Origin: an uncultured Rhodobacterales bacterium
GTDB taxonomy: Bacteria; Pseudomonadota; Alphaproteobacteria; Rhodobacterales; Rhodobacteraceae
DNA length: 64,000 nt
Assembly: GCA_903873585.1 (NCBI GenBank)
Contig: CAIQOV010000014.1
Coordinates: 1-64,000, forward strand
Direction: 5' to 3'
Within the stretch, counting starts at the first letter, position 1, and every line of letters begins with the position of its first letter. Shown here in pieces: positions 49,092 to 63,709 of the stretch. The notes beneath the pieces were generated by a model. It was not told the DNA's origin. It searched no databases and saw only the letters and a program-made list of their open reading frames with translations. The position numbers were made by a program, and so were the translations under genes.

Positions 49092-49460
49092 GAAGGTCAG
49101 GCTGACCGCCTGCCACCCCGTGCTGCGCGCCGTTAAGACCGCCGTCAGCACCGCGCTAAATCGCGGCAGTTCTGCGCCCTGCTCATCGCGCGCGCCGCTG
49201 ACAACAAAGCGCTGTGTGACAATCGCCGCCCCCGGCCCCAGCACGCGCAGACGGTTTCGGCCCGAAACCAAGCGTGCCGTGGCAAAAATGCCGGAAAATT
49301 CTTCCGCAAAACTCGCCTCTGCCAAAGCGGCACTGTCGACCATAGAGCCGGTCAGCGTCAGCACATCGGCATCTTCGGCCAGAAACTGCGCCATTTCGGC
49401 GGCATCTTGCCGCCCGAAGGCACCGGCAAATTGTTTGGCAAACTCTTCTGGGCCGGTCAT
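49074..49460 (-). CDS. NTF2/SnoaL-like protein
   Basis: A 128-residue single-domain protein with the cone-shaped NTF2 pattern: EEFAKQFAGAFGRQDAAEMAQFLAEDADVLTLTGSMVDSAALA, then mixed strands. Related SnoaL/DUF4440 proteins bind small ligands or act as steroid-isomerase-like enzymes; none is suggested here. Its start overlaps the DUF1638 stop by four bases, making it the third gene of the corrinoid-protein operon. Confidence 0.78.
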   Translation of the reverse strand: MTGPEEFAKQFAGAFGRQDAAEMAQFLAEDADVLTLTGSMVDSAALAEASFAEEFSGIFATARLVSGRNRLRVLGPGAAIVTQRFVVSGARDEQGAELPRFSAVLTAVLTARSTGWQAVSLTFSATGQ

Positions 49461-50098
49461 TGCGCGAAACGCTCCATCGTTGTGGCCAGATCGCCGTATC
49501 CAGTGAAACGGCGTTCATAGGCAAGGCCAAGCCGCTGTGCACAGTCTGCGGCTTTAATATCCAAGGCAGGGTCATTCGTTTGCGCTTGATAAACCAATTT
49601 GGTGTAATTGGCAAAGTATGTGTCGCGCAATTGCGGATAGCGGTCTAACCCCATTGGCTTCCAAACAAAGGCGTCAAACTGGCGCACCAGAAAGTCGGTC
49701 AGATAAAAGGCGGTGATTTCACTATCAAGATGCGTGGCAAAGGTCGCGTTGCCTTCGAAGAACGAATAGCAATGCGGGCCTGCGATCATCTCTACCCCCA
49801 ATTGCGCGCATTTGGCGGCAAGCAACCCACCCGTGCCACAATCGGCATACAGCACGAAGATCGACTGATATTGGTCGCGGTGGTCTTCCACGGTGCGCGC
49901 CACCTCGGCGGTGATCTTTTCGGGGTACAGATGCAGCTTGGCGGGCAGGCATTGCACATCCATGTGCTGCCAATTGTTGACCTTGATCAGGGCCAACACC
50001 TCATGCGCCAAAGCGCCGCAGGCGATCAGCAGGACTGATCCGCTATGGCGCGGGGCAAGGCCGGTTTCGGTCAGGTCCGTGTCGTTTGGCTGTTCCAT
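49457..50098 (-). CDS. DUF1638 protein (corrinoid-associated)
   Basis: A 213-residue DUF1638 protein. It has conserved cysteines in LLIACGALAHEVLALIKVNNW (near residue 29) and VLYADCGTGGLLAAK, and an acidic/aromatic C-terminal half. DUF1638 genes commonly lie beside corrinoid methyltransferase proteins, as here, and have no known activity; a role in handling cobalamin, methyl groups or a metal would be guesswork. ATG 50098 (MEQPNDTDLTE) is chosen; 50125 would add nine basic residues. Confidence 0.85.
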   Translation of the reverse strand: MEQPNDTDLTETGLAPRHSGSVLLIACGALAHEVLALIKVNNWQHMDVQCLPAKLHLYPEKITAEVARTVEDHRDQYQSIFVLYADCGTGGLLAAKCAQLGVEMIAGPHCYSFFEGNATFATHLDSEITAFYLTDFLVRQFDAFVWKPMGLDRYPQLRDTYFANYTKLVYQAQTNDPALDIKAADCAQRLGLAYERRFTGYGDLATTMERFAQ

Positions 50099-50146
50099 GC
50101 GCCCTCTTAGATGGCCGCGCGCCAAAGCCCAAGGCGCAAATGCAAA

Positions 50147-50167
50147 CCCCGGGCACTTGGCCCGGGG
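50147..50167 (-). terminator. hairpin between corrinoid gene and DUF1638
   Basis: Minus-strand CCCCGGGC-CAAGT-GCCCGGGG with TTTGC following: an 8-base GC stem 22 bases after the corrinoid gene stop. The short T-run suggests partial termination, leaving DUF1638 and the NTF2-like gene at a lower level. Confidence 0.55.
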
Positions 50168-50188
50168 CTGCGCGTGGTTCCGAAGCGA

Positions 50189-50887
50189 TTAGGCCGAGGC
50201 GCGGTTGTGCTTGCGCAGCATAAACGCCTTGGCGGTTTCCACAGCTACGGCCGCATCGCGGCAATAAGCATCAGCGCCGATCGCCTTAGAGAATTCTTCG
50301 TTCAAGGGCGCACCGCCCACCAGCACGATGTAATCATCGCGCATACCCTTTTCTTTCATCGTGTCGATCACGACTTTCATATAGGGCATTGTGGTGGTCA
50401 GCAGGGCCGACATGCCCAAGATATCGGGCTTGTCGGTTTCAATCGCTTCAAGATACTTCTCGACCGAGTTGTTGATACCAAGGTCGCGCACTTCAAAGCC
50501 TGCGCCTTCCATCATCATGCCGACAAGGTTTTTGCCGATATCGTGAATGTCGCCTTTAACGGTACCAATCACCATCTTGCCCATGCGCGGCGCGCCGGTC
50601 GCAATCAGCAGCGGTTTTAGAATGGCCATGCCACCCTTCATCGCGTTTGCGGCCAGCAGCACTTCGGGCACAAACAAAATGCCGTCACGGAAGTCAGCGC
50701 CCACAATCGTCATGCCCGCCACCAAGGCTTTGGTCAAAACGTCATAGGGCGTCCATTTGCGGGCGATCAGGATATTGACGCCTTCTTCGATCTCTTCTTT
50801 CAGACCGTCATAAAGGTCGTCGTGCATTTGCAAGACAAGTTCATCGTCAGACAGTTCAGACAGGATGATATCTTCGTCGTCGGCCAT
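50189..50887 (-). CDS. B12-binding corrinoid protein (MetH-like cobalamin module)
   Basis: A 232-residue stand-alone cobalamin carrier. Residues 15-95 are the helical cap domain with GADFRDGILFVPEVLLAANAM; the Rossmann-like B12 domain has the histidine-on motif GDIHDIGKN (Asp113-His115-Gly118), SALLTTT and GGAPL. It resembles MtbC-type corrinoid proteins of archaea and the cobalamin part of MetH. With a homocysteine methyltransferase of the BHMT type 1.4 kb away, the likely role is carrying a methyl group for methionine synthesis. ATG 50887 has AGAAGGAGC before it. Confidence 0.93.
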   Translation of the reverse strand: MADDEDIILSELSDDELVLQMHDDLYDGLKEEIEEGVNILIARKWTPYDVLTKALVAGMTIVGADFRDGILFVPEVLLAANAMKGGMAILKPLLIATGAPRMGKMVIGTVKGDIHDIGKNLVGMMMEGAGFEVRDLGINNSVEKYLEAIETDKPDILGMSALLTTTMPYMKVVIDTMKEKGMRDDYIVLVGGAPLNEEFSKAIGADAYCRDAAVAVETAKAFMLRKHNRASA

Positions 50888-51128
50888 GCTGATGCTCCTT
50901 CTCGCGTTTCTTCGTCAATGGGGCCAAAGCCCGATTTGCACTTTTCCTTTAGCGACATGCCCCGCATGAAAGCCGACAGCAAGGGAAATTGAAAGGGCGA
51001 AATTGCGAAGGATTTTGGCGGTTTGGCTTTGTGGGCGGGTTTGGGGTGTTCGGGGGGGAATGCCGCGTTTGCGACAGGTCGTGGCAAAGTCCTCTTGCGA
51101 TGTTCCTAATATGTTCTAAATTGGCGGC

Positions 51129-52220
51129 ATGGATTCGCCCAAGCCCCACCCCAACCCGCGTCAAAAACTGCGTGCGCGCGGCGCTGTCAGCAATGACGCG
51201 GGGCGGTTTGAACCCACCGCGCGGATGGCTTTTGATGACGGTTGGGATTTGGCCGAAGACCCCCGCCTTTTGCGCACCGAGGTGCGTGTGGAAGAGCCGC
51301 GCTCTGCCATCACCTATAACACCTCGCCCGACCTGCCCTTTGACCGCTCGATCAACCCCTATCGCGGCTGCGAGCATGGCTGCATCTATTGCTTTGCGCG
51401 CCCGACCCATGCTTTTTTGAACCTGTCACCGGGTCTAGATTTTGAAACCAAACTCATCGCCCGCCCCGGCATTGCCCAAGTGCTTGACCGCGAACTTAGG
51501 GCGCGGTCTTACAAGGTCGCCCCCATCGCGCTTGGCACCAACACCGACCCTTACCAACCGATAGAGGCAGAACACCGCGTGATGCGCGATGTTTTGACCA
51601 CGCTTTTGGCCTTTCGCCACCCTGTCGCGATCACCACCAAAGGCACTTTGGTCGAGCGGGATTTAGACCTGCTTGTCCCCCTCGCCGAACAGGGGCTGAC
51701 TCGGGTGGGCATTTCGATCACCACGCTGGATCCCGTCTTGTCGCGCAAGATGGAACCGCGCGCCCCTAGCCCTGCACGGCGGTTGGCGGTCATTGCCAAG
51801 CTCGCACAGGCGGGGGTGTCGGTGCGCGTGATGGTGTCGCCCTTGGTGCCGGGCCTGTCGGATCATGAGCTAGAGCCGATCTTGGAAGCCGCAACCGCAG
51901 CAGGGGCCACGGGCGCAAGCTACATCAACCTGCGCCTCCCGCGTGAGGTGTCTGCGTTGTTTCAAGACTGGCTCGCCACCCATTACCCCGACCGCGCCGC
52001 CAAGGTCATGGCGCGGGTGCGCGAAATGCACGGCGGGCAGGATTATGATGCCGATTGGGGCAAACGCTTTCGCGGCACAGGGCTTTGGGCCAACCTGATG
52101 CAGCGCCGCTTTGCCGTGGCCGTGGCGCGCCTTGGCCTAGACCAACCGCTGCCCGCCCTGCGCTGCGATCTGTTTCGTCCACCGACGTCAAACGGGGCGC
52201 AGATGGGCTTTGACTTGTAA
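51129..52220 (+). CDS. radical SAM protein (PA0069 / SPL-like family)
   Basis: A 363-residue radical SAM enzyme of the PA0069/Rv2578c group. The [4Fe-4S] motif CEHGCIYC (Cys81, Cys85, Cys88) follows SINPYRG, the group signature; the TIM-barrel part continues with GTNTDPYQPIEAEHRVMRDVLTTL. These resemble spore photoproduct lyases in sequence but their substrate is unknown. It lies between the corrinoid and homocysteine methyltransferase genes on the opposite strand. Some starts of the family use a later Met. Confidence 0.9.
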   Translation: MDSPKPHPNPRQKLRARGAVSNDAGRFEPTARMAFDDGWDLAEDPRLLRTEVRVEEPRSAITYNTSPDLPFDRSINPYRGCEHGCIYCFARPTHAFLNLSPGLDFETKLIARPGIAQVLDRELRARSYKVAPIALGTNTDPYQPIEAEHRVMRDVLTTLLAFRHPVAITTKGTLVERDLDLLVPLAEQGLTRVGISITTLDPVLSRKMEPRAPSPARRLAVIAKLAQAGVSVRVMVSPLVPGLSDHELEPILEAATAAGATGASYINLRLPREVSALFQDWLATHYPDRAAKVMARVREMHGGQDYDADWGKRFRGTGLWANLMQRRFAVAVARLGLDQPLPALRCDLFRPPTSNGAQMGFDL

Positions 52221-52238
52221 GGGCGCGAAAGCGCGCCC
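52221..52238. terminator. shared hairpin in a convergent gap
   Basis: GGGCGCG-AAAG-CGCGCCC starts immediately after the radical SAM stop and lies eight bases before the stop of the convergent homocysteine methyltransferase gene. It has no strong T-run on either side. Confidence 0.5.
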
Positions 52239-52245
52239 CGCCAGA

Positions 52246-53262
52246 TCAGCCCCGCTTATTGCGCCGTTCGCGTGTTGGCTGGCCCGAGGTGTCACCCGTG
52301 CCGTCATTGGCCGATGAAAACGCGCCAAGCTTAGCCTGAATATCATCCGGCGAGGGTTTCGGCCCCTTGGGGCGCGTTTCCAAAGCGTGGCGCATGGCTT
52401 TAAGATGTTCCGGCATCGTGCCGCAGCATCCGCCGATGATCTTCACCCCCGCATCCCGCGCCAGAACGGCATATTCTGCCATCAGTTCGGGCGTGCCGTC
52501 ATAATGGATGTGGCCATCGTGATACTTTGGAATGCCCGCATTGCCCTTGGCAATGATCGGGCGGCTGGTGTTTGTCATCTCAAACCCCAGAACCGTGCGC
52601 ATCAAATCAGCAGCCCCGACACCACAATTCGCCCCAAAGGCCAGCGGCGGATGCGCCATCTTTTCGACCAGTGCTGCCATTTTGGTCGATGTCAGGCCCA
52701 TCATCGTATGCCCTGCGGTGTCAAAGCTCATCGTGCCGCACCACGGCAGGCCCGCCAAGGTCGCGGCTTCGGCGGCAGCGGCGTATTCTTCAAAGGCTGA
52801 CATGGTTTCAATCCACAACACATCCGCGCCGCCAGCTTTCAGCGCCGCCGCCTGTTCGTGGAAAATCTCGACCGCAAGGGCATGGGTCATCGTGCCCATC
52901 GGTTCAAAAATCTCACCCGTCGGCCCGATGGATCCTGCCACCACCACAGGGCGGCCTGCGGTATCGGCAATCTCGCGGCCCAAGCTGGCCGCCACACGGT
53001 TCAACTCGCCCACGCGCCCTTGGGCGTTGTGCAGTTTCAACCGCGCAGCATTGCCGCCAAAAGAGTTGGTCAGGAACAAATCCGACCCCGCCTTAACCGC
53101 GCTGCGGTACAAGGTGCGGATGTTGTCGGGCTGTTCAATGTTCCAAAACTCGGGCGGTTCACCCGAAGATAGGCCCATGTTAAACAGGTTCGTGCCGGTG
53201 GCCCCATCCGCCAAAAGCCAGTCTTGCGTCGCCAGCAGGCGGGACAGAAGGTCTTGTGCCAT
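52246..53262 (-). CDS. bmtB: homocysteine S-methyltransferase (BHMT/BmtB-type, MetH module)
   Basis: A 338-residue zinc TIM-barrel methyltransferase that transfers a methyl group to homocysteine. LLADGATGTNLFNMG is the N-terminal homocysteine loop; zinc ligands are Cys213 (FGANCGVG) and Cys279/Cys280 (GGCCGT). It is usually annotated as betaine-homocysteine methyltransferase, but it is equivalent to the first module of MetH. With the nearby stand-alone B12 protein I favour a cobalamin-dependent, split methionine synthase over betaine use. The last 40 residues are basic and likely disordered. It follows the zeta-subunit gene by 13 bases. Confidence 0.9.
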   Translation of the reverse strand: MAQDLLSRLLATQDWLLADGATGTNLFNMGLSSGEPPEFWNIEQPDNIRTLYRSAVKAGSDLFLTNSFGGNAARLKLHNAQGRVGELNRVAASLGREIADTAGRPVVVAGSIGPTGEIFEPMGTMTHALAVEIFHEQAAALKAGGADVLWIETMSAFEEYAAAAEAATLAGLPWCGTMSFDTAGHTMMGLTSTKMAALVEKMAHPPLAFGANCGVGAADLMRTVLGFEMTNTSRPIIAKGNAGIPKYHDGHIHYDGTPELMAEYAVLARDAGVKIIGGCCGTMPEHLKAMRHALETRPKGPKPSPDDIQAKLGAFSSANDGTGDTSGQPTRERRNKRG

Positions 53263-53275
53263 GGGGCCCCCTAGG

Positions 53276-53590
53276 TCAAAGTTCGGTCAGAAGTTGCGCT
53301 TTGGCTTCGGGCAGCAGGGCTGCCAGCTTAGCGCGCACCGCTTCGGCGCTGGAATGTGCACCCAGATCGCCCGCGACCTTTGCCACCAAATCCTCGGTTC
53401 CCGCTTTCACAAGGTCAGAATTGACCACCTCTAGCGCATAGGCCTCGGCCTCGGCGCCAGATTTGCCCAACAGACCCGCGGCCCACAGGCCCAAAAGCTT
53501 GTCGCGCCGCGCTTCGGCGCGAAACTGCATTTCAGAATCATGGGCGAATTTGGCTTCAAAGGCTTTTTCGCGGTCATTGAACGTGGTCAT
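53276..53590 (-). CDS. F1-ATPase inhibitor zeta subunit (DUF1476)
   Basis: A 103-residue four-helix protein of the DUF1476 family, shown in Paracoccus to be the natural zeta inhibitor of F1-ATPase. MTTFNDREKAFEAKFAHDSEMQFRAEARRDKLLGLWAAG is the conserved inhibitory N-terminal region. ATG 53590 is the family start; 53629 would add 13 residues. It is the first gene before bmtB on the minus strand and divergent from purC. Confidence 0.93.
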   Translation of the reverse strand: MTTFNDREKAFEAKFAHDSEMQFRAEARRDKLLGLWAAGLLGKSGAEAEAYALEVVNSDLVKAGTEDLVAKVAGDLGAHSSAEAVRAKLAALLPEAKAQLLTEL

Positions 53591-53805
53591 GCTATGGCCC
53601 TCGGCTGCACGTTGCTTTTCCCCCTCCATATGCCTTTCCCAAGGCTTTACCGCAAGGGCCCCTTAGCACTTTCCGCCCGATGCCCCTGCAAGGGCCGATG
53701 CGTCTTGCCGCAGCGCGGGCCATGGCGTATAGCGCGCTGAATGGGTCGGTGCCCACGGTGCCGCTTATGGCCCGCAGCACCCCCTAGAAGGTTTTCGGAG
53801 CTTTC

Positions 53806-55921: not shown

Positions 55922-57469
55922 TTAGCGCGCTTTGGGCGCATGCCCCTTGGTCAGGTCATAAAACCCATCGCCCGCCACCTTGGCCCAGTCCGATGCGCTG
56001 CCATCGGGCCAAATCACCCGCACTTCGGCTTGCGGGTCAGCCCCTAGGCCAAAGTGCCACCAGCCCAACTGCCCGCCCGCATGGCCGCCGCCGGATGTGA
56101 TCTCACGCTGTTGCACGCGCGCGCCTTGGCGCAGTTCAATCCAAGCGCCAATCGCATCACGGTTGGCCCCGTCTTGATGCAGCGCCAGTTGCAGCCAGTG
56201 GCCCTTGGGAGCGCCTTCATTGCGCCACACCTCGGCCCCTGTGTTGCGGTTCACCACCACGATGTCCAACTGCCCGTCGCCGTTCAAATCCACCACCGAA
56301 GCGCCCCGCGCTTGGGCAAAGCTTGCGATCCCCGTCTTATCCCCCGCCTCGGTAAATGTGCCATCGCCCAAGCCCAACAGCAGGTTGTTGGGGTCTTTCA
56401 TCGCGAAATCTGGCATGGCCGACACATTGCCTTTGGCCACAAACAAATCCTGCACCCCATCGTTGTTCACATCCTGAAATTCGGCGTGCCATCCGGTCGA
56501 GGGGCGAAAATCGCCGCCCGTGTAGGGGCGCTGCGCAATGGCATGGCTGGCAAAGGCGATGTCTTTGTAAGTGGCCTTTTCCGGCCCCGCCGCCAGCACT
56601 TGCAACTTGCTGTCTGACATCGAGGTCATGAAGTAATCGGGAAAGCCGTCGCCATTCACATCGGTGCTGGCAATGCCCATTCCCCAGATTTTCAAGGGTT
56701 TCCACCCCTCTGCCGCCGTGTAAAGCGCGGGCGCTTGGTTGGGGGCAATGTGCCACATCTGCTCGCTGCCGCCCTTGTAATACTCGCGGTCGTTTGACAC
56801 CCGCAGCGATGGCGTGCCAGAGCGGTTCCAGTCGGTGAACAGCATCGACAGGCTGCAAAAGCTGGGCTTCAACTCTAACGGCGCGGCAAATCCCTGACCC
56901 TTGGGGCGGTACAGCGCATTGGGGGTACACGATCCCCACGGGAAAGCATCCTGCGTGCGGTCAATATAGGTGCCGATGGCAAGTGTCGGCCAAGCCTGCC
57001 CCTTTTCCCACGTCGCGGCAAAGGCGGTTGACCACAGATCGCGCCCGTCAAAGCCCCAATCCTCGTTGGCGCGGCTGAATTGGCAATGGCCCAGACCGCG
57101 CATCACCACATCTTCGCCCGACCGCAGCAGAACAAGGTCAAGGATGCCGTCGCTGTCAATGTCCAACGGATAGGCCCCCGTCACGCGGTCAAGCTCAACC
57201 CCAGCGGTCAGCGCGGTAAACTTCAACGCCCCGCCGGTCAGGCTGTCATTGCTGTATAACGTGGCCTTTTGCGTGCCCCCCGCCATCAGCAATTCTGGCT
57301 TGCCGTCGCCCGAACAATCAAAGGCCGCAACCCCGCCGCCGGTCATAAACTCCCACTCGCCGGCATAAACGCTTGCAATGCCAGCGCTGGCGGTTTCGTT
57401 GACATAGCGCGGAATTTCGACATCCGCGAAAGCAGGGGACGCCAGCAAAGCCAAGGCAAACCAACGCAT
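55922..57469 (-). CDS. exported CRTAC1-family FG-GAP/VCBS repeat protein with ASPIC/UnbV tail
   Basis: A 515-residue secreted protein. Signal peptide MRWFALALLASPAFA; then an integrin-alpha-like beta-propeller of calcium-binding repeats (DCSGDGKPELLMAGG, DIDSDGILDLVLLRS, DVNGDGFPDYFMTSM, DVNNDGVQDLFVAKG, DLNGDGQLDIVVVNR); the C-terminal part (IELRQGARVQQREIT ... HFGLG ... VRVIWPDGS) is the ASPIC/UnbV domain. It is presumably periplasmic or surface-located. It follows the haloperoxidase-like gene by one base, implying joint function. Confidence 0.9.
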   Translation of the reverse strand: MRWFALALLASPAFADVEIPRYVNETASAGIASVYAGEWEFMTGGGVAAFDCSGDGKPELLMAGGTQKATLYSNDSLTGGALKFTALTAGVELDRVTGAYPLDIDSDGILDLVLLRSGEDVVMRGLGHCQFSRANEDWGFDGRDLWSTAFAATWEKGQAWPTLAIGTYIDRTQDAFPWGSCTPNALYRPKGQGFAAPLELKPSFCSLSMLFTDWNRSGTPSLRVSNDREYYKGGSEQMWHIAPNQAPALYTAAEGWKPLKIWGMGIASTDVNGDGFPDYFMTSMSDSKLQVLAAGPEKATYKDIAFASHAIAQRPYTGGDFRPSTGWHAEFQDVNNDGVQDLFVAKGNVSAMPDFAMKDPNNLLLGLGDGTFTEAGDKTGIASFAQARGASVVDLNGDGQLDIVVVNRNTGAEVWRNEGAPKGHWLQLALHQDGANRDAIGAWIELRQGARVQQREITSGGGHAGGQLGWWHFGLGADPQAEVRVIWPDGSASDWAKVAGDGFYDLTKGHAPKAR

Positions 57470-57470
57470 C

Positions 57471-58787
57471 TTACGCCCTCGTCTTCAAAGCTATGGCATA
57501 GGCGGCAATGCAGCGCCCTTGGTCTTGGCCGTGTTTGATGGCAGGCATAAAGTGAATGCCGCCGTAAAGCCGCGATATCGCCGCCTCATCCGCCGCAGCC
57601 CAGAAGCTGGCAAAACTGCGGGTCGGCACGCCGTCAGGGGTGGGGCTTTCATCGGTGAAGTTGTAACTGTCGCCAAACAAGGCCGTCAAAACCGAAGCCG
57701 CCGCCGCCGATTGGGTGGAATGGCCCGAGGGGTATTCCGGAAACGGCGGGGTGTTCAGCAGCGGTTCCCACTTGGGGTCGATCACCTTTTTGATATAGCT
57801 GATCGGGCGGATCAGGTCGTATTGAAACTTGGCCGACCAGCAGCCAATGAAGGCATCCGCCATCGCCACACCCATCCGGGCCAAGGCTTCGACTTGGGCG
57901 GTCAGGTCCAGCCCCTTTTCAACCGCCACCTGCGTCATAATGGCGATCCAATGGCCGGGCGGGGTGTAAGACAGCATCGCATCATCCGACCAGAACCGCG
58001 CGATTTGCTTTTGTGCGTCGGTCAGGGACCCGCTGGTTGTGTAAACCTCCATCGCTTCGGCGTAGAACGGCGAGGCTGGGTCTTCGGAATAGTCTGTCGG
58101 CGGGGGCAGGGTGCAGGTCTCGCCTGCGGGCATGGCAAAGGGGCGGTTCTTGCCCCAATCGGGCAGCAGGGGCGCCTGTTGCAGCACGATTTTCGATGTT
58201 GGCACCCAATGCCCCGGCGCGGGGTTCAGGGTGTAGGTGGCAGGGAAACCCATGTTGTCGATCACAGCGCCGCCATCGCTGCGGGCCCAGTCCAAAACCG
58301 CCGCCGCCAAAGTCGCCCCGTAAGAGCGGCTGGCAGCCACCACATCCGCAGCCAAACCCGTCGCCGCCTGCTCGGCCAAGCGTGCGCTCAAGGTTTGCAC
58401 CGCGTGCTGGCCTGTTGGGCCGGTGTTGGCGAAAAGGTCGCGGATCAACCCTTCCATCACTGCGGTTAAGATCACCGCCGTGTCATAGCCTTGCCCCGTT
58501 GCGCGGTCGGGCAGGGCGGACAGCCCGTTCAACTGCCCGATCAGGCTGTGCAACCGCGCATCGCCACTTGCCAGCGCTTCAAAGGCCGCAACCCCCATAT
58601 AGGCCAAGGTGCGGCTGGCCACGGGCGGGGTATAGGTGGGCGTATGGCGCACCAGTTCCAGCGCCAAGCGGTACCACGTCGCAAGCACCTCGGCGGCCAC
58701 CGTCTCACGGTTGTCGCCTGACGCCTGTGCCGTGCCCCCCAGCAGCGCCAAAGCGACCCCTGCCGTCAAAAACGTGCGCCGTTGCAT
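57471..58787 (-). CDS. vanadium-dependent haloperoxidase / PAP2-superfamily protein
   Basis: A 438-residue exported protein. The leader MQRRTFLTAGVALALLGG is twin-arginine-like, pointing to folded, cofactor-loaded export. The vanadate/phosphate site is complete: Lys320 and Arg327 in AKFQYDLIRPISYI, PSGHS (353-357, His356) and SRLYGGIHF (Arg406, His412). The set fits haloperoxidases or acid phosphatases of one superfamily; activity with vanadate cannot be read. ATG 58787 is chosen over 58811 since AGGAG precedes and the Tat leader starts there. It is paired with the CRTAC1 gene and follows xylA by 84 bases. Confidence 0.88.
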   Translation of the reverse strand: MQRRTFLTAGVALALLGGTAQASGDNRETVAAEVLATWYRLALELVRHTPTYTPPVASRTLAYMGVAAFEALASGDARLHSLIGQLNGLSALPDRATGQGYDTAVILTAVMEGLIRDLFANTGPTGQHAVQTLSARLAEQAATGLAADVVAASRSYGATLAAAVLDWARSDGGAVIDNMGFPATYTLNPAPGHWVPTSKIVLQQAPLLPDWGKNRPFAMPAGETCTLPPPTDYSEDPASPFYAEAMEVYTTSGSLTDAQKQIARFWSDDAMLSYTPPGHWIAIMTQVAVEKGLDLTAQVEALARMGVAMADAFIGCWSAKFQYDLIRPISYIKKVIDPKWEPLLNTPPFPEYPSGHSTQSAAAASVLTALFGDSYNFTDESPTPDGVPTRSFASFWAAADEAAISRLYGGIHFMPAIKHGQDQGRCIAAYAIALKTRA

Positions 58788-58871
58788 CCCCGCATCTCCT
58801 ATTTGCCCCAATCCTTCGGGGTCGGGGGCTGGCCCCGATCTTGGCTGTTCACCCTGCGCGTCGTTTTCAGA

Positions 58872-60173
58872 TCAAACGAAGCGGTTCCACAGGTTTTCCA
58901 GCCGCTCTTGTCGGCCAGATTTCGGCTGCGGTTCCAGCCCTTCGGCGGTGACACGCGCGGCAGCCTCGGCAAGGCCGCCTTTTAGCATCGCTTGCGCTTT
59001 GGGGGTTGCCCAACCGGCGTAACGCTCTGCCCGCGCCTTTTCCAAGCCGCCATCTTCCAGCAAAGCCGCAGCAGCCTTCAAAGCCCGCGCGCAGGTATCC
59101 ATCCCGCCCACATGGCCTAAGATCAGATCTTCGGCATCAAGGCTTTGACGGCGGATTTTGGCGTCAAAGTTTGTCCCACCCGTGTGCAAACCGCCGCCCT
59201 TCAGGATCTCGTAATAGGCCAGCGCCATTTCGGGGGTGTTGTTGGGGAATTGGTCAGTGTCCCAGCCTGATTGGTAATCGTTGCGGTTCATGTCGATCGA
59301 CCCAAGGATCCCCAACGAGGTCGCCAGTGCGAGTTCATGTTCAAACGAATGGCCCGCCAAGATCGCGTGGCCCTGTTCGATGTTGACCTTGACCTCTTTT
59401 TCCAAGCCAAACTGCACCAAGAAGCCATAAACCGTTGCGACATCATAGTCATACTGGTGCTTTGAGGGTTCTTGCGGCTTCGGTTCGATCAGGATCGTGC
59501 CCTTAAAGCCGATCTTGTGCTTGTACTCGACCACCTGCTGCAAGAAGCGTCCGGCGTGTTCGCGTTCGGCCTTAAGGTCGGTGTTGAGCAGCGTTTCATA
59601 GCCTTCGCGCCCGCCCCACAGCACATAATTGGCCCCGCCCAGCTTGTGGGTGGCATCCAGATTGGCTTTCACCATCGCCGCTGCGTAAGCGTAAACGTCA
59701 GGGTCGGGGTTGGTGGCAGCGCCGCTCATCCAGCGGCGGTTGGAAAACATGTTGGCGGTGCCCCACAGCAGCTTGGCCTTATGGGTCGCCTGTTTCTCGG
59801 CCAGATAGTCGACAATCGCTTCAAGGTTGCGATTGCTTTCGGCAAAGGTGGCACCTTCGGGGCGCACATCGGCATCGTGGAAGCAGTAAAAGGGCACGCC
59901 CAAGATATCAAACATCTCAAAGGCGGCGTCGGCTTTCAGCTTGGCCAGTTCCATCGTCTCGCCAAACCACGGGCGCAGCAGGGTTTGGCCGCCGAAGGGG
60001 TCGTGGCCCTGATAGGCGAACGAATGCCAGTAGGCGACGGCAAAGCGCAGATGGTCTTCCATCCGCTTGCCCATGACCATTTCGTCGGGGTTGTAGTGGC
60101 GAAAGGCGAATTCGTTGGAGGAATTGGGGCCTTCGTACTTCACGGCGGGGATATTTTTGAAAAAGTCGGTCAT
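58872..60173 (-). CDS. xylA: xylose isomerase XylA
   Basis: A 433-residue class II xylose isomerase converting D-xylose to D-xylulose. It has the catalytic His in YCFHDADV, the signature [18 protein letters not shown] and metal ligands in [18 protein letters not shown]. It follows xylB by eight bases and is the last clear xylose gene of the operon. Confidence 0.97.
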
Positions 60174-60181
60174 GATGGGCC

Positions 60182-61621
60182 CTAGTGTGAGAGTTTCTGG
60201 ATCGCCGCCGCAGCGGCGCGGTAGCGGGCGTGAGCGGCATCAAAGGCGGCGGTCAGTTTAGGGTCGGGGTCGATCGTGCGGGCAATCGGGGGCATCGTGG
60301 CAATCTCGGCCCCTGCACCCGTCGCGGCCATCATCCCCAAGCGGGCCGCCCCCAAAGCGCCGCCAAAGTCACCCGCTGCGGGCACCAGAACGGGGCAATC
60401 AAGGGCTGTCGCAATGGCTTTGAGCCAATAATCCGATTTGGCCCCCCCGCCCACGGCAAGCAGGCTTTCCAGCTTGGTGCCGGTGGCGGCCAGCGCATCG
60501 CGGCTGTCGCGGAAGGCGAAAGTCACACCTTCCAGCACAGCGCGGGTGCCTGCGGCGCGGTCGGTTTGGTGTTCAAGCCCCAAGAAAGCGCCGCGAATGG
60601 CGGCATCGTTCAAGGGCGTGCGCTCTCCGCCAAGATAGGGCAGGAACAGCGCCTTGCCGGGGGATTGCAGCGCGCCAAGTTCACCGGTCAGGGTCGCGGC
60701 AGCTTGGCCCACCAACCCCGCATACCAGTTCAGCGCATCGGTCGCGGCCAGCACCACACCCATCTGGTGCCAAGTGTTGGGCAAGGCGTGGCAGAATGTA
60801 TGCACAGCGGTCGCAGGGTCAGGCTGATAGCCATCATTGGCCGCAAACAACACGCCCGAGGTGCCAAGGCTGACAAAGGCTTGCCCCGCCTTCACCACAC
60901 CCACGCCCACGCCAGCGGCGGCATTGTCACCCGCACCACCCGCCACAACCACACCGGCGGGCAGGCCCCAGCGACCGGCCAATTCGCCGCGCACTTGGCC
61001 CGAAACCTGCGAACCTTCGACCAGCCTCGGCATTTGCGCGCGTGTTGAGCCCGTTGCGGTAAGCAGATCATCCGACCAATCGCGCAGGCCCGTGTCAAAC
61101 CACGCCGTGCCCGCCGCATCCGACATTTCGCTGACATGCTCACCCGTCAGCCACAGACGCAGGTAATCCTTAGGCAGCAGCACTTTGGCAACCTTGGCCC
61201 AAACGGCGGGTTCGTGCTTTTGCACCCATGCCAGTTTCGGCGCGGTGAAGCCCGGAAAGACGATGTTGCCCGTCACACGGCGAAAGATCGGGTCGCCGTC
61301 CATCTCGGCCGCTTCTTCGTGGCTGCGCGTGTCGTTCCACAAGATGCAGGGCCGCAGCACGTCATCGGCCTTGTCCAGCAAGGTCGCGCCGTGCATATGG
61401 CCCGACAGACCAATGCCGCGCACCCCGCCCAAACCGCGGGCGGAGAGCTTGTCAAACACGGCCTCGGCGGCGGTGATCCAGCTGTCGGGGGCCTGCTCGC
61501 TCCACCCGTCATGGGGGCGTTGCACGGTCAGGGGGGCTGTGGCCTCGGCCACAATTTTCTGATCGGCGTCGATCAGAATGCCCTTTAACCCCGAGGTTCC
61601 CAGATCAAGCCCGATGTACAT
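60182..61621 (-). CDS. xylB: xylulokinase XylB
   Basis: A 479-residue FGGY kinase. [18 protein letters not shown] is the phosphate loop, [27 protein letters not shown] the sugar site, and [19 protein letters not shown] the C-terminal ATP motif. It phosphorylates D-xylulose for the pentose phosphate pathway. Its ATG overlaps the xylG stop by one base. Confidence 0.96.
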
Positions 61622-62382
61622 TACGCAGCCTTTGCGGGTTTCTTGCCAAGAATGATCATCGACAAGATGTCTTCGTCTGTCACTTGGTTCACATCGACCG
61701 TGCCAACCAACTGCCCGTTTTTCATCACCGAAGCCCGATCACACAGCTTCATCACGTTGTGAATGTCATGTTCGATCAGGAAAATGCCCAAGCCTTGCGC
61801 CTTTAGCTCTTGGATCAGTTCGGAAACCATTTGGGTTTCTTGCGGGCCAAGGGCGGCGGTGGGTTCATCCATGATCAGGATCTTGGCGTTGAAATAGACC
61901 GCGCGCGCAATGGCGACCGATTGGCGTTGCCCACCCGACAGGGCTGACACCGGCACGTTGAACTTGCGAAAGTTCGGGTTCAGGCGGCCCATGATCTTGC
62001 GTGTTTCGGCCTCCATCGTGCTTTCGTCAAGAAACCCGCGCGAGGATACCAATTCGCGGCCCAAAAACAGGTTTTGGGCGGCGGTCAGGTTATCGGCCAA
62101 GGCCAGCGTCTGATAGATCGTTTCGATGTTTTGCGCGCGCGCATCGCGGGGCGAGTTGATCGAAACCGCTTGCCCGTTGATCAGGATCTGCCCGCTGTCG
62201 GCATGATAGGCCCCCGACAGGCATTTGATCAGCGTCGACTTGCCAGCACCGTTGTGGCCCAAAAGGCCCACAACTTCACCGGGGTGCAGGTCGACCGAAA
62301 CGTGGTCAACAGCCTTGATCCCCCCGAAGGCAATCGAGATGTCACGCATCTCGACCAGAGGTGTTCCCTTGTTCATGGTCAA
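61621..62382 (-). CDS. xylG: xylose ABC transporter ATPase XylG, single-domain form
   Basis: A 253-residue sugar ABC ATPase: Walker [17 protein letters not shown] (about 39-46), signature [14 protein letters not shown], Walker [14 protein letters not shown]. coli XylG fuses two ABC domains (513 residues); here there is one, so it must act as a homodimer, as FrcA-type transporters do. It is four bases after xylH and coupled to xylB. Confidence 0.9.
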
Positions 62383-62386
62383 AACC

Positions 62387-63709
62387 TCACTTTGTCCGCT
62401 TGCGGTAGATGATGTCTAGATAGACGGCGACGATCAGAACAAGGCCTACGACGATGTTTTGCACCGCCGTGTCAAAGCCGATCAGCACCATGCCGGTGCG
62501 CAGGCTTTCCATGACCAAAGCGCCCAGAACCGCGCCGTAGATCGTGCCCACGCCGCCCGCCAATGACGTGCCGCCGATCACGGCAGCGGCGATAACGTAC
62601 AGCTCGTCAGTCTGCCCCAAAGCGTTGGTGGCCGAGGTCAGGCGTGCCGAAGAGATCACCGCCGACAGACCGGCCAGCATCCCCATCAGCGCATAAATCT
62701 TAACCGTCATCCAGCGCACGTTAATGCCCGACAGCGCCGCAGCTTCTGGGTTGCCGCCAATGGCAAAGACATAGCGCCCAAAGCGGGTGCGGGTCATCAA
62801 GACCGTCATCAGCAGGGCCACTGTCACCAAGATCAGCACCGGATAGGCAAAGCCAAGGCTGATGAACAGGCCTTCTGGGGGAACGATGATGTTGTTCGCC
62901 TCGGCATAGGCTTTCACGATGCCCTTGGGCCAATAATAGCTGTCAACCACCAAAACCGCGCCAAGGATCAGCGCGCAGCCAAGCGCGCCCATGAACACCT
63001 CGGCCCAGATCGGGCGTTGGGGAAAATCATGTTTCTGGCGGTTCTTGCGGCCCGCAAGCAGGCCGTACAGCACCGCAGCGCAGGCGATGATCCCGATGAT
63101 CCACGATCCCGTCGACCCGATTGATCCGTAAGGCCCGCCGCCCAACAGTTGGAAATTCGTATCCACTGGCGAAATCGTGCGCCCGTTCGCCATCAAGAAG
63201 GCCGCACCGCGCCACGCCATCAGGCCGCCCAGCGTGACGATGAACGACGGAATGGCAAGATAGGCGATCAGCACGCCGTTCAAGGTGCCAATCAGCGCGC
63301 CCAACGACAGGCCCACCGCCACCGTGATGATCCAAATCGCCGGATGCCCCAGCCCCATCGAGGGTGGCAACCATTCGACCTGCAACAGGCCCATCACCAT
63401 GCCGATGAAGCCCAGTAAAGAGCCAACCGACAGGTCAATATTGCGTGTGACGATCACCAGCACCATGCCCGTGGCCATCACGCCAATCGAGCACATCTGG
63501 ACAGACAGGTTCCACAAGTTGCGCGGCGTCAGGAAAAAGCCTTCGCCGTTAAAAACAACGCCGTAAAAGTGAAAGCCGAACCAAATCAGCAGCAAAGCAC
63601 CGGCCATGCCCATCAGGCGGGTGTCAATTTCGGTTGCCGCAACAAAGCGGGCAAAGGGGCTGCCCTTCAGATCATGGCTGGCATGAGCGGGGCGGGGGGC
63701 TGTGGTCAT
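62387..63709 (-). CDS. xylH: xylose ABC transporter permease XylH
   Basis: A 440-residue ribose/xylose-type permease with about ten membrane helices and a roughly 30-residue cytoplasmic leader. [20 protein letters not shown] and [20 protein letters not shown] are family hallmarks. It is longer than E. coli XylH (393), mainly because of a loop at about 210-290. Expression is likely reduced relative to xylF by the terminator upstream. Confidence 0.93.

Follow-up and report, generated by a model that had tools for sequence, protein, structure and literature searches.

Two genes for exported proteins lie side by side on the minus strand of the window (the whole stretch of DNA analysed, 64,000 nucleotides). 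The upstream gene encodes a vanadium-haloperoxidase-like protein of the Zobellia-iodoperoxidase type (VHPO; 438 aa, 58787-57471), which begins with an ATG codon and has a possible alternative TTG start at 58811. The downstream gene encodes a CRTAC1-type FG-GAP propeller protein with a Sec-type signal peptide (515 aa, 57469-55922). As the first-pass annotation had noted, a single base, 57470, makes up the whole gap between the stop codon of the former and the start codon of the latter.

The pair forms the end of a one-strand gene run with the order xylF-H-G-B-A-VHPO-CRTAC1. Directly upstream of VHPO, at a distance of 84 bp, lies xylA (xylose isomerase, 58872-60173; 660 bits to TIGR02630), followed by xylB (xylulokinase, 60182-61621; 542 bits to TIGR01312), both exceeding their NCBIfam cut-offs. 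The run goes on with genes for an xylG-like sugar ABC transporter ATP-binding protein (61621-62382), 81% identical to its counterpart from a sister locus, and an xylH-like sugar ABC transporter permease (62387-63709), all on the minus strand. Beyond the window it continues with xylF (minus strand, contig positions 63829-64947), whose counterpart in the sister locus matches TIGR02634 above cut-off, and past xylF stands a divergent ROK regulator gene on the plus strand (contig 65068-66342). No promoter or terminator signal rose above the chance level in scans around the pair. Elsewhere in the window, the translations from 49457-53629 read as a DUF1638-like protein and one of corrinoid type, together with a protein resembling homocysteine methyltransferase and another that is small and conserved, a run resembling a corrinoid methyl-transfer locus.

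The VHPO enzyme

PAP2 is the only Pfam family scoring above its cut-off on VHPO (E 1e-9), with VCPO_2nd falling just below (24.5 bits against 27). The vanadate-site residues are complete, comprising K320 (codon 57828-57830), R327-P328 (R327 codon 57807-57809), P353-S354-G355-H356 (57720-57731), S405-R406 and H412 (R406 to H412, 57552-57572, within the motif SRLYGGIH), where positions are on the minus strand and were computed from the translation. By sequence, H356 is the acid-base histidine, R406 the vanadate-site arginine and H412 the vanadium ligand. These residues are invariant in 91/91 clade members, the sole deviation being one Ala at P353, so that the full Lys/Arg/PSGH/His site of the first-pass annotation is borne out.

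The nearest solved relative of VHPO is the iodoperoxidase VIPO1 of Zobellia galactanivorans (4cit, 4usz), with E-values against 4cit of 2.9e-72 for the single sequence and 9.8e-102 for the family profile. An AlphaFold2 model built from 22 relatives (pLDDT 83, pTM 0.85, residues 174-207 of low confidence) matches 4cit along the full-length VHPO helical fold at 36% identity (TM 0.81/0.86, E 8e-25), and other VHPOs rank after 4cit in the structure search. Both proteins contain the complete vanadate site and share the motifs PPFPEY-x-SGHS and SR-x-YGGIH. What sets the clade described here apart is its association with a CRTAC1 gene and, in many cases, with a xylose locus.

The leader of the window's VHPO (MQRRTFLTAGVALALLGG) is Tat-like, as had been noted. 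However, a crude twin-Arg pattern was found in only 54/94 VHPO relatives, with the remainder looking Sec-type. This indicates that the relatives keep export without keeping the Tat pathway, and the idea of conserved Tat export was rejected.

Other VHPO domains turned up in different settings. Another alphaproteobacterium contains a VHPO domain within a 3433-residue open frame (locus L065, G621:C38:7712-8581), which may be part of a giant secreted fusion protein. Annotations of VHPO-like regions on Rhizobium and Nostoc plasmids (H2-H5, H8, H10), which sit in genes containing Ig-like or CARDB domains, likewise suggest VHPO domains within multidomain secreted proteins.

The CRTAC1-type propeller

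The first-pass annotation had described five or more calcium-loop repeats and an ASPIC/UnbV tail in the second protein. We located DxDxDG-type loops in five places (residues 51, 103, 270, 333 and 394), together with FG-GAP_3 in five stretches and a UnbV_ASPIC domain at residues 439-501 (minus strand, 55967-56155; E 1.8e-12), in agreement with both statements. A structure model (pLDDT 87, pTM 0.89) adopts a propeller fold, with mouse CRTAC1 (9etn) as the best match by sequence and by fold (TM 0.74/0.69, E 2.4e-21). The two proteins have the FG-GAP propeller and the ASPIC/UnbV domain in common, the significant sequence match lying for the most part in the final repeats of the propeller and the ASPIC/UnbV domain; unlike the mouse protein, the one described here is bacterial and linked to a peroxidase.

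Conservation of the pair

In a Rhodobacteraceae sample of roughly one genome for each genus (298 in all), a close VHPO occurred in 25, the window's genome included, and a CRTAC1 gene directly followed VHPO in every locus whose contig continues. A second set contained 80 contig loci from Rhodobacterales, Rhizobiales and unclassified Alphaproteobacteria, two of which end inside or at the VHPO gene. Here the two genes were adjacent in 77 of the 78 testable loci, a result far beyond chance that answers the gene-pair survey proposed in the first-pass annotation. The lone exception (L129) has no CRTAC1 gene within the 538 bases left on its contig. Spacing is also tight: the distance from VHPO stop to CRTAC1 start is -4 in 38/91 cases, a four-base overlap, and lies between -4 and +8 in 88/91. 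The distance matrices of the two proteins correlate (r = 0.72, to which shared organismal history contributes), and two Rhodobacterales loci (L033 and L141) fall among Rhizobiales in the CRTAC1 tree, a placement compatible with transfer of the pair.

No such pairing was seen among the more distant enzymes checked. A class-wide VHPO profile search returned only distant VHPOs besides the window's own, and six distant VHPOs (L057-L062) have no CRTAC1 neighbour. Plasmid VHPOs of two Bacteroidota, Adhaeribacter and Hymenobacter, were both checked and have no annotated CRTAC1 alongside, giving no support for wider pairing outside Alphaproteobacteria.

Alternative partners of the propeller

CRTAC1 homologues were present in 151/298 Rhodobacteraceae genomes, with coordinates listed for 150. 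Most of those from VHPO-free genomes have as partner a tail-to-tail gene for a two-CxxCH protein of the CCP_MauG family. The solved relatives of this di-heme peroxidase include the 'Di-heme enzyme' 6e1c, which we take to be MbnH, and MauG; it also matches the MbnH, MauG and His-Xaa-Ser MauG-like models, below their equivalog cut-offs. Among the 150 genomes, 23 carry VHPO, 117 the MauG/MbnH-like peroxidase and one carries both. One or other enzyme is thus found in 139/150, leaving 11 with neither at the thresholds used, two of which carry a third, DHOR-like partner. Fisher p-values for this count overstate independence because they ignore tree structure.

The MauG-like gene is adjacent to CRTAC1 in 101 of the 117 genomes and tail to tail with it in 100 of those 101, an arrangement that is not one operon. 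It was absent from 25/26 further genomes with the VHPO pair, the exception (G679) having two CRTAC1 genes, one next to each peroxidase. The window's own genome gave no match to the MauG-like gene, and the CRTAC1 neighbour there is VHPO. In Rhizobiaceae, CRTAC1 occurred in 60/139 genomes and VHPO in 20. A DHOR-like di-heme gene lies directly upstream of CRTAC1 in 20/20 sampled Rhizobiaceae loci without a VHPO or MauG-like neighbour, occupying the VHPO position; Pfam DHOR scored above cut-off in two of three such proteins tested.

A CRTAC1 tree, rooted only at midpoint, groups by partner. VHPO-linked rows (plus one contig-edge row) form one group and DHOR-linked rows mostly a second, while MauG-linked rows form a grade around both. 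This sorting suggests that the partner changed perhaps twice, and only about two swaps support exchangeability. Approximately 19 of the retrieved CRTAC1 loci have no recognised peroxidase alongside, some having one elsewhere or ending at a contig edge. A CRTAC1 subclade in three genomes (L212, L213 and L214, from G008, G017 and G057) is divergent from xylF, followed by a ROK regulator, with or without one gene between. No recognised peroxidase adjoins CRTAC1 in these loci, where the partner may be of a fourth kind or encoded at an unlinked site.

Xylose context

Among loci with enough flank, a xylose context lies near CRTAC1 in 15/16 MauG-linked, 20/20 DHOR-linked and 33/79 VHPO-linked cases. 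In the other 46 of the 79 VHPO loci no xylose locus is nearby, and even there the pair is intact, as after a joint relocation. Given these fractions, the xylose context looks ancestral but dispensable, unlike the peroxidase link.

Discussion

The reading that we consider probable is a two-protein periplasmic (or secreted) oxidation module with a constant CRTAC1 core and an exchangeable peroxide-using enzyme, ancestrally situated in a xylose locus. The best candidate for the constant part is the propeller rather than the haloperoxidase. This assignment, and the finding that the pair closes a run of genes for taking up and breaking down xylose, go beyond the first-pass annotation, which had proposed a periplasmic or surface oxidation system. 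The idea of a paired, exported oxidation system gains support from the VHPO fold and site, conservation over two orders and the pairing with heme peroxidases elsewhere, but its Tat leader is not a conserved element.

In the proposed mechanism, the operon would be expressed in the presence of xylose and both proteins would be exported. VHPO would then bind vanadate and, with H2O2 as its oxidant, act on iodide, bromide or some other small nucleophile. The propeller would be a dedicated binding partner in contact with it, either positioning the target of the oxidant or being that target; scaffold, oxidation target and enzyme may all be considered as its role. In relatives, the exchangeable enzyme would be the MauG/MbnH-like di-heme peroxidase or the DHOR-like di-heme protein.

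A specific form of this reading is oxidative maturation, in which the peroxidase acts on the propeller, where conserved Trp, Tyr or Cys side chains would be turned into a cofactor or become halogenated or cross-linked. MauG oxidatively matures pre-MADH, and MbnH does so for MbnP. These systems likewise tie a periplasmic peroxide-using enzyme to one partner protein, and by analogy oxidative maturation has precedent in them. The resemblance of the di-heme partner of sister CRTAC1 proteins to 6e1c and MauG also favours it. Some 105 positions of CRTAC1 are the same whichever of the three partners it has. Many lie away from the calcium loops (as in the stretches NDRxY, WGMG, STxWH and KGNV), and the conserved set includes Trp39, 146, 239, 256, 262, 327 and 487, Tyr168 and 230 and four Cys. 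Such residues could, however, serve folding, as mere core packing or disulfides. Furthermore, CRTAC1 relatives pair with MauG/MbnH-like proteins in sister loci only, whereas the enzyme here is of the vanadate type by sequence and the window's genome has no MauG-like gene; VHPOs are not known to mature partner proteins. We regard oxidative maturation as unlikely, though worth keeping in view.

Somewhat less plausible still is that VHPO and CRTAC1 share no more than a transcript and export, each doing its own work, with VHPO making hypohalous acid for defence or consuming H2O2 alone. Bacterial VHPOs in general act alone, and the distant members of the same family that lack a CRTAC1 neighbour fit this account. 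Near-universal adjacency over two orders, joint relocation and alternation with other peroxidases speak against it.

That the enzyme is a PAP2 phosphatase without haloperoxidase activity would agree with the Pfam result, with vanadate-site motifs common to both enzyme types and with the ability of apo-VHPOs to dephosphorylate (3bb0), but the fold and full-length similarity to 4cit disfavour it, acid phosphatases aligning to only about half of the VHPO model (TMq near 0.34, with E no better than 3e-4), and we find it very improbable. We give equally little credence to a sugar-acting propeller, an oxidase or dehydratase beside which the peroxidase would consume H2O2 or use it for activation, much like the oxidase-peroxidase pairs of fungi: the xylose locus and the second-ranked fold match, aldos-2-ulose dehydratase (4a7k, E 9.5e-10), offer a weak lead, but any FG-GAP propeller would match about as well (10% identity, with similar scores for integrins), and there is no known cofactor site.

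Returning to the module with a constant propeller, VHPO and CRTAC1 are both known families. In the open-licence literature searched, we found no description of the VHPO-CRTAC1 pair, of CRTAC1 with MauG or of xylose with VHPO; the stable pair, its place in a xylose operon and the alternation of partners are not found described there. In one published survey (PMC12758564), CRTAC1-family FG-GAP genes of Planctomycetota and others flank hydrazine synthase beta-gamma homologues and stand beside propeller, cytochrome-c-peroxidase-like and peroxidase-like di-heme proteins. Those systems differ from ours in their phyla and in involving multiheme proteins, and the passages on them report neither a VHPO nor a xylose locus. 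It is conceivable, and we advance it tentatively, that the module represents an undescribed alphaproteobacterial system, controlled by xylose, in which any one of three peroxidase-like enzymes of the periplasm (one using vanadate, the others di-heme) activates, modifies or supplies a CRTAC1 core, the metal chemistry being exchanged while the partner stays the same.

For bacterial vanadium haloperoxidases from outside the sea, physiological roles are for the most part still to be established. The tie to a fixed partner and to xylose catabolism gives one of them a testable role, with cultivable named relatives. If true, a switch from a heme to a vanadate peroxidase next to an unchanged propeller would be an unusual exchange of metal cofactor, and the module would provide a handle on the function of CRTAC1 proteins in bacteria, whose vertebrate homologue belongs to the extracellular matrix.
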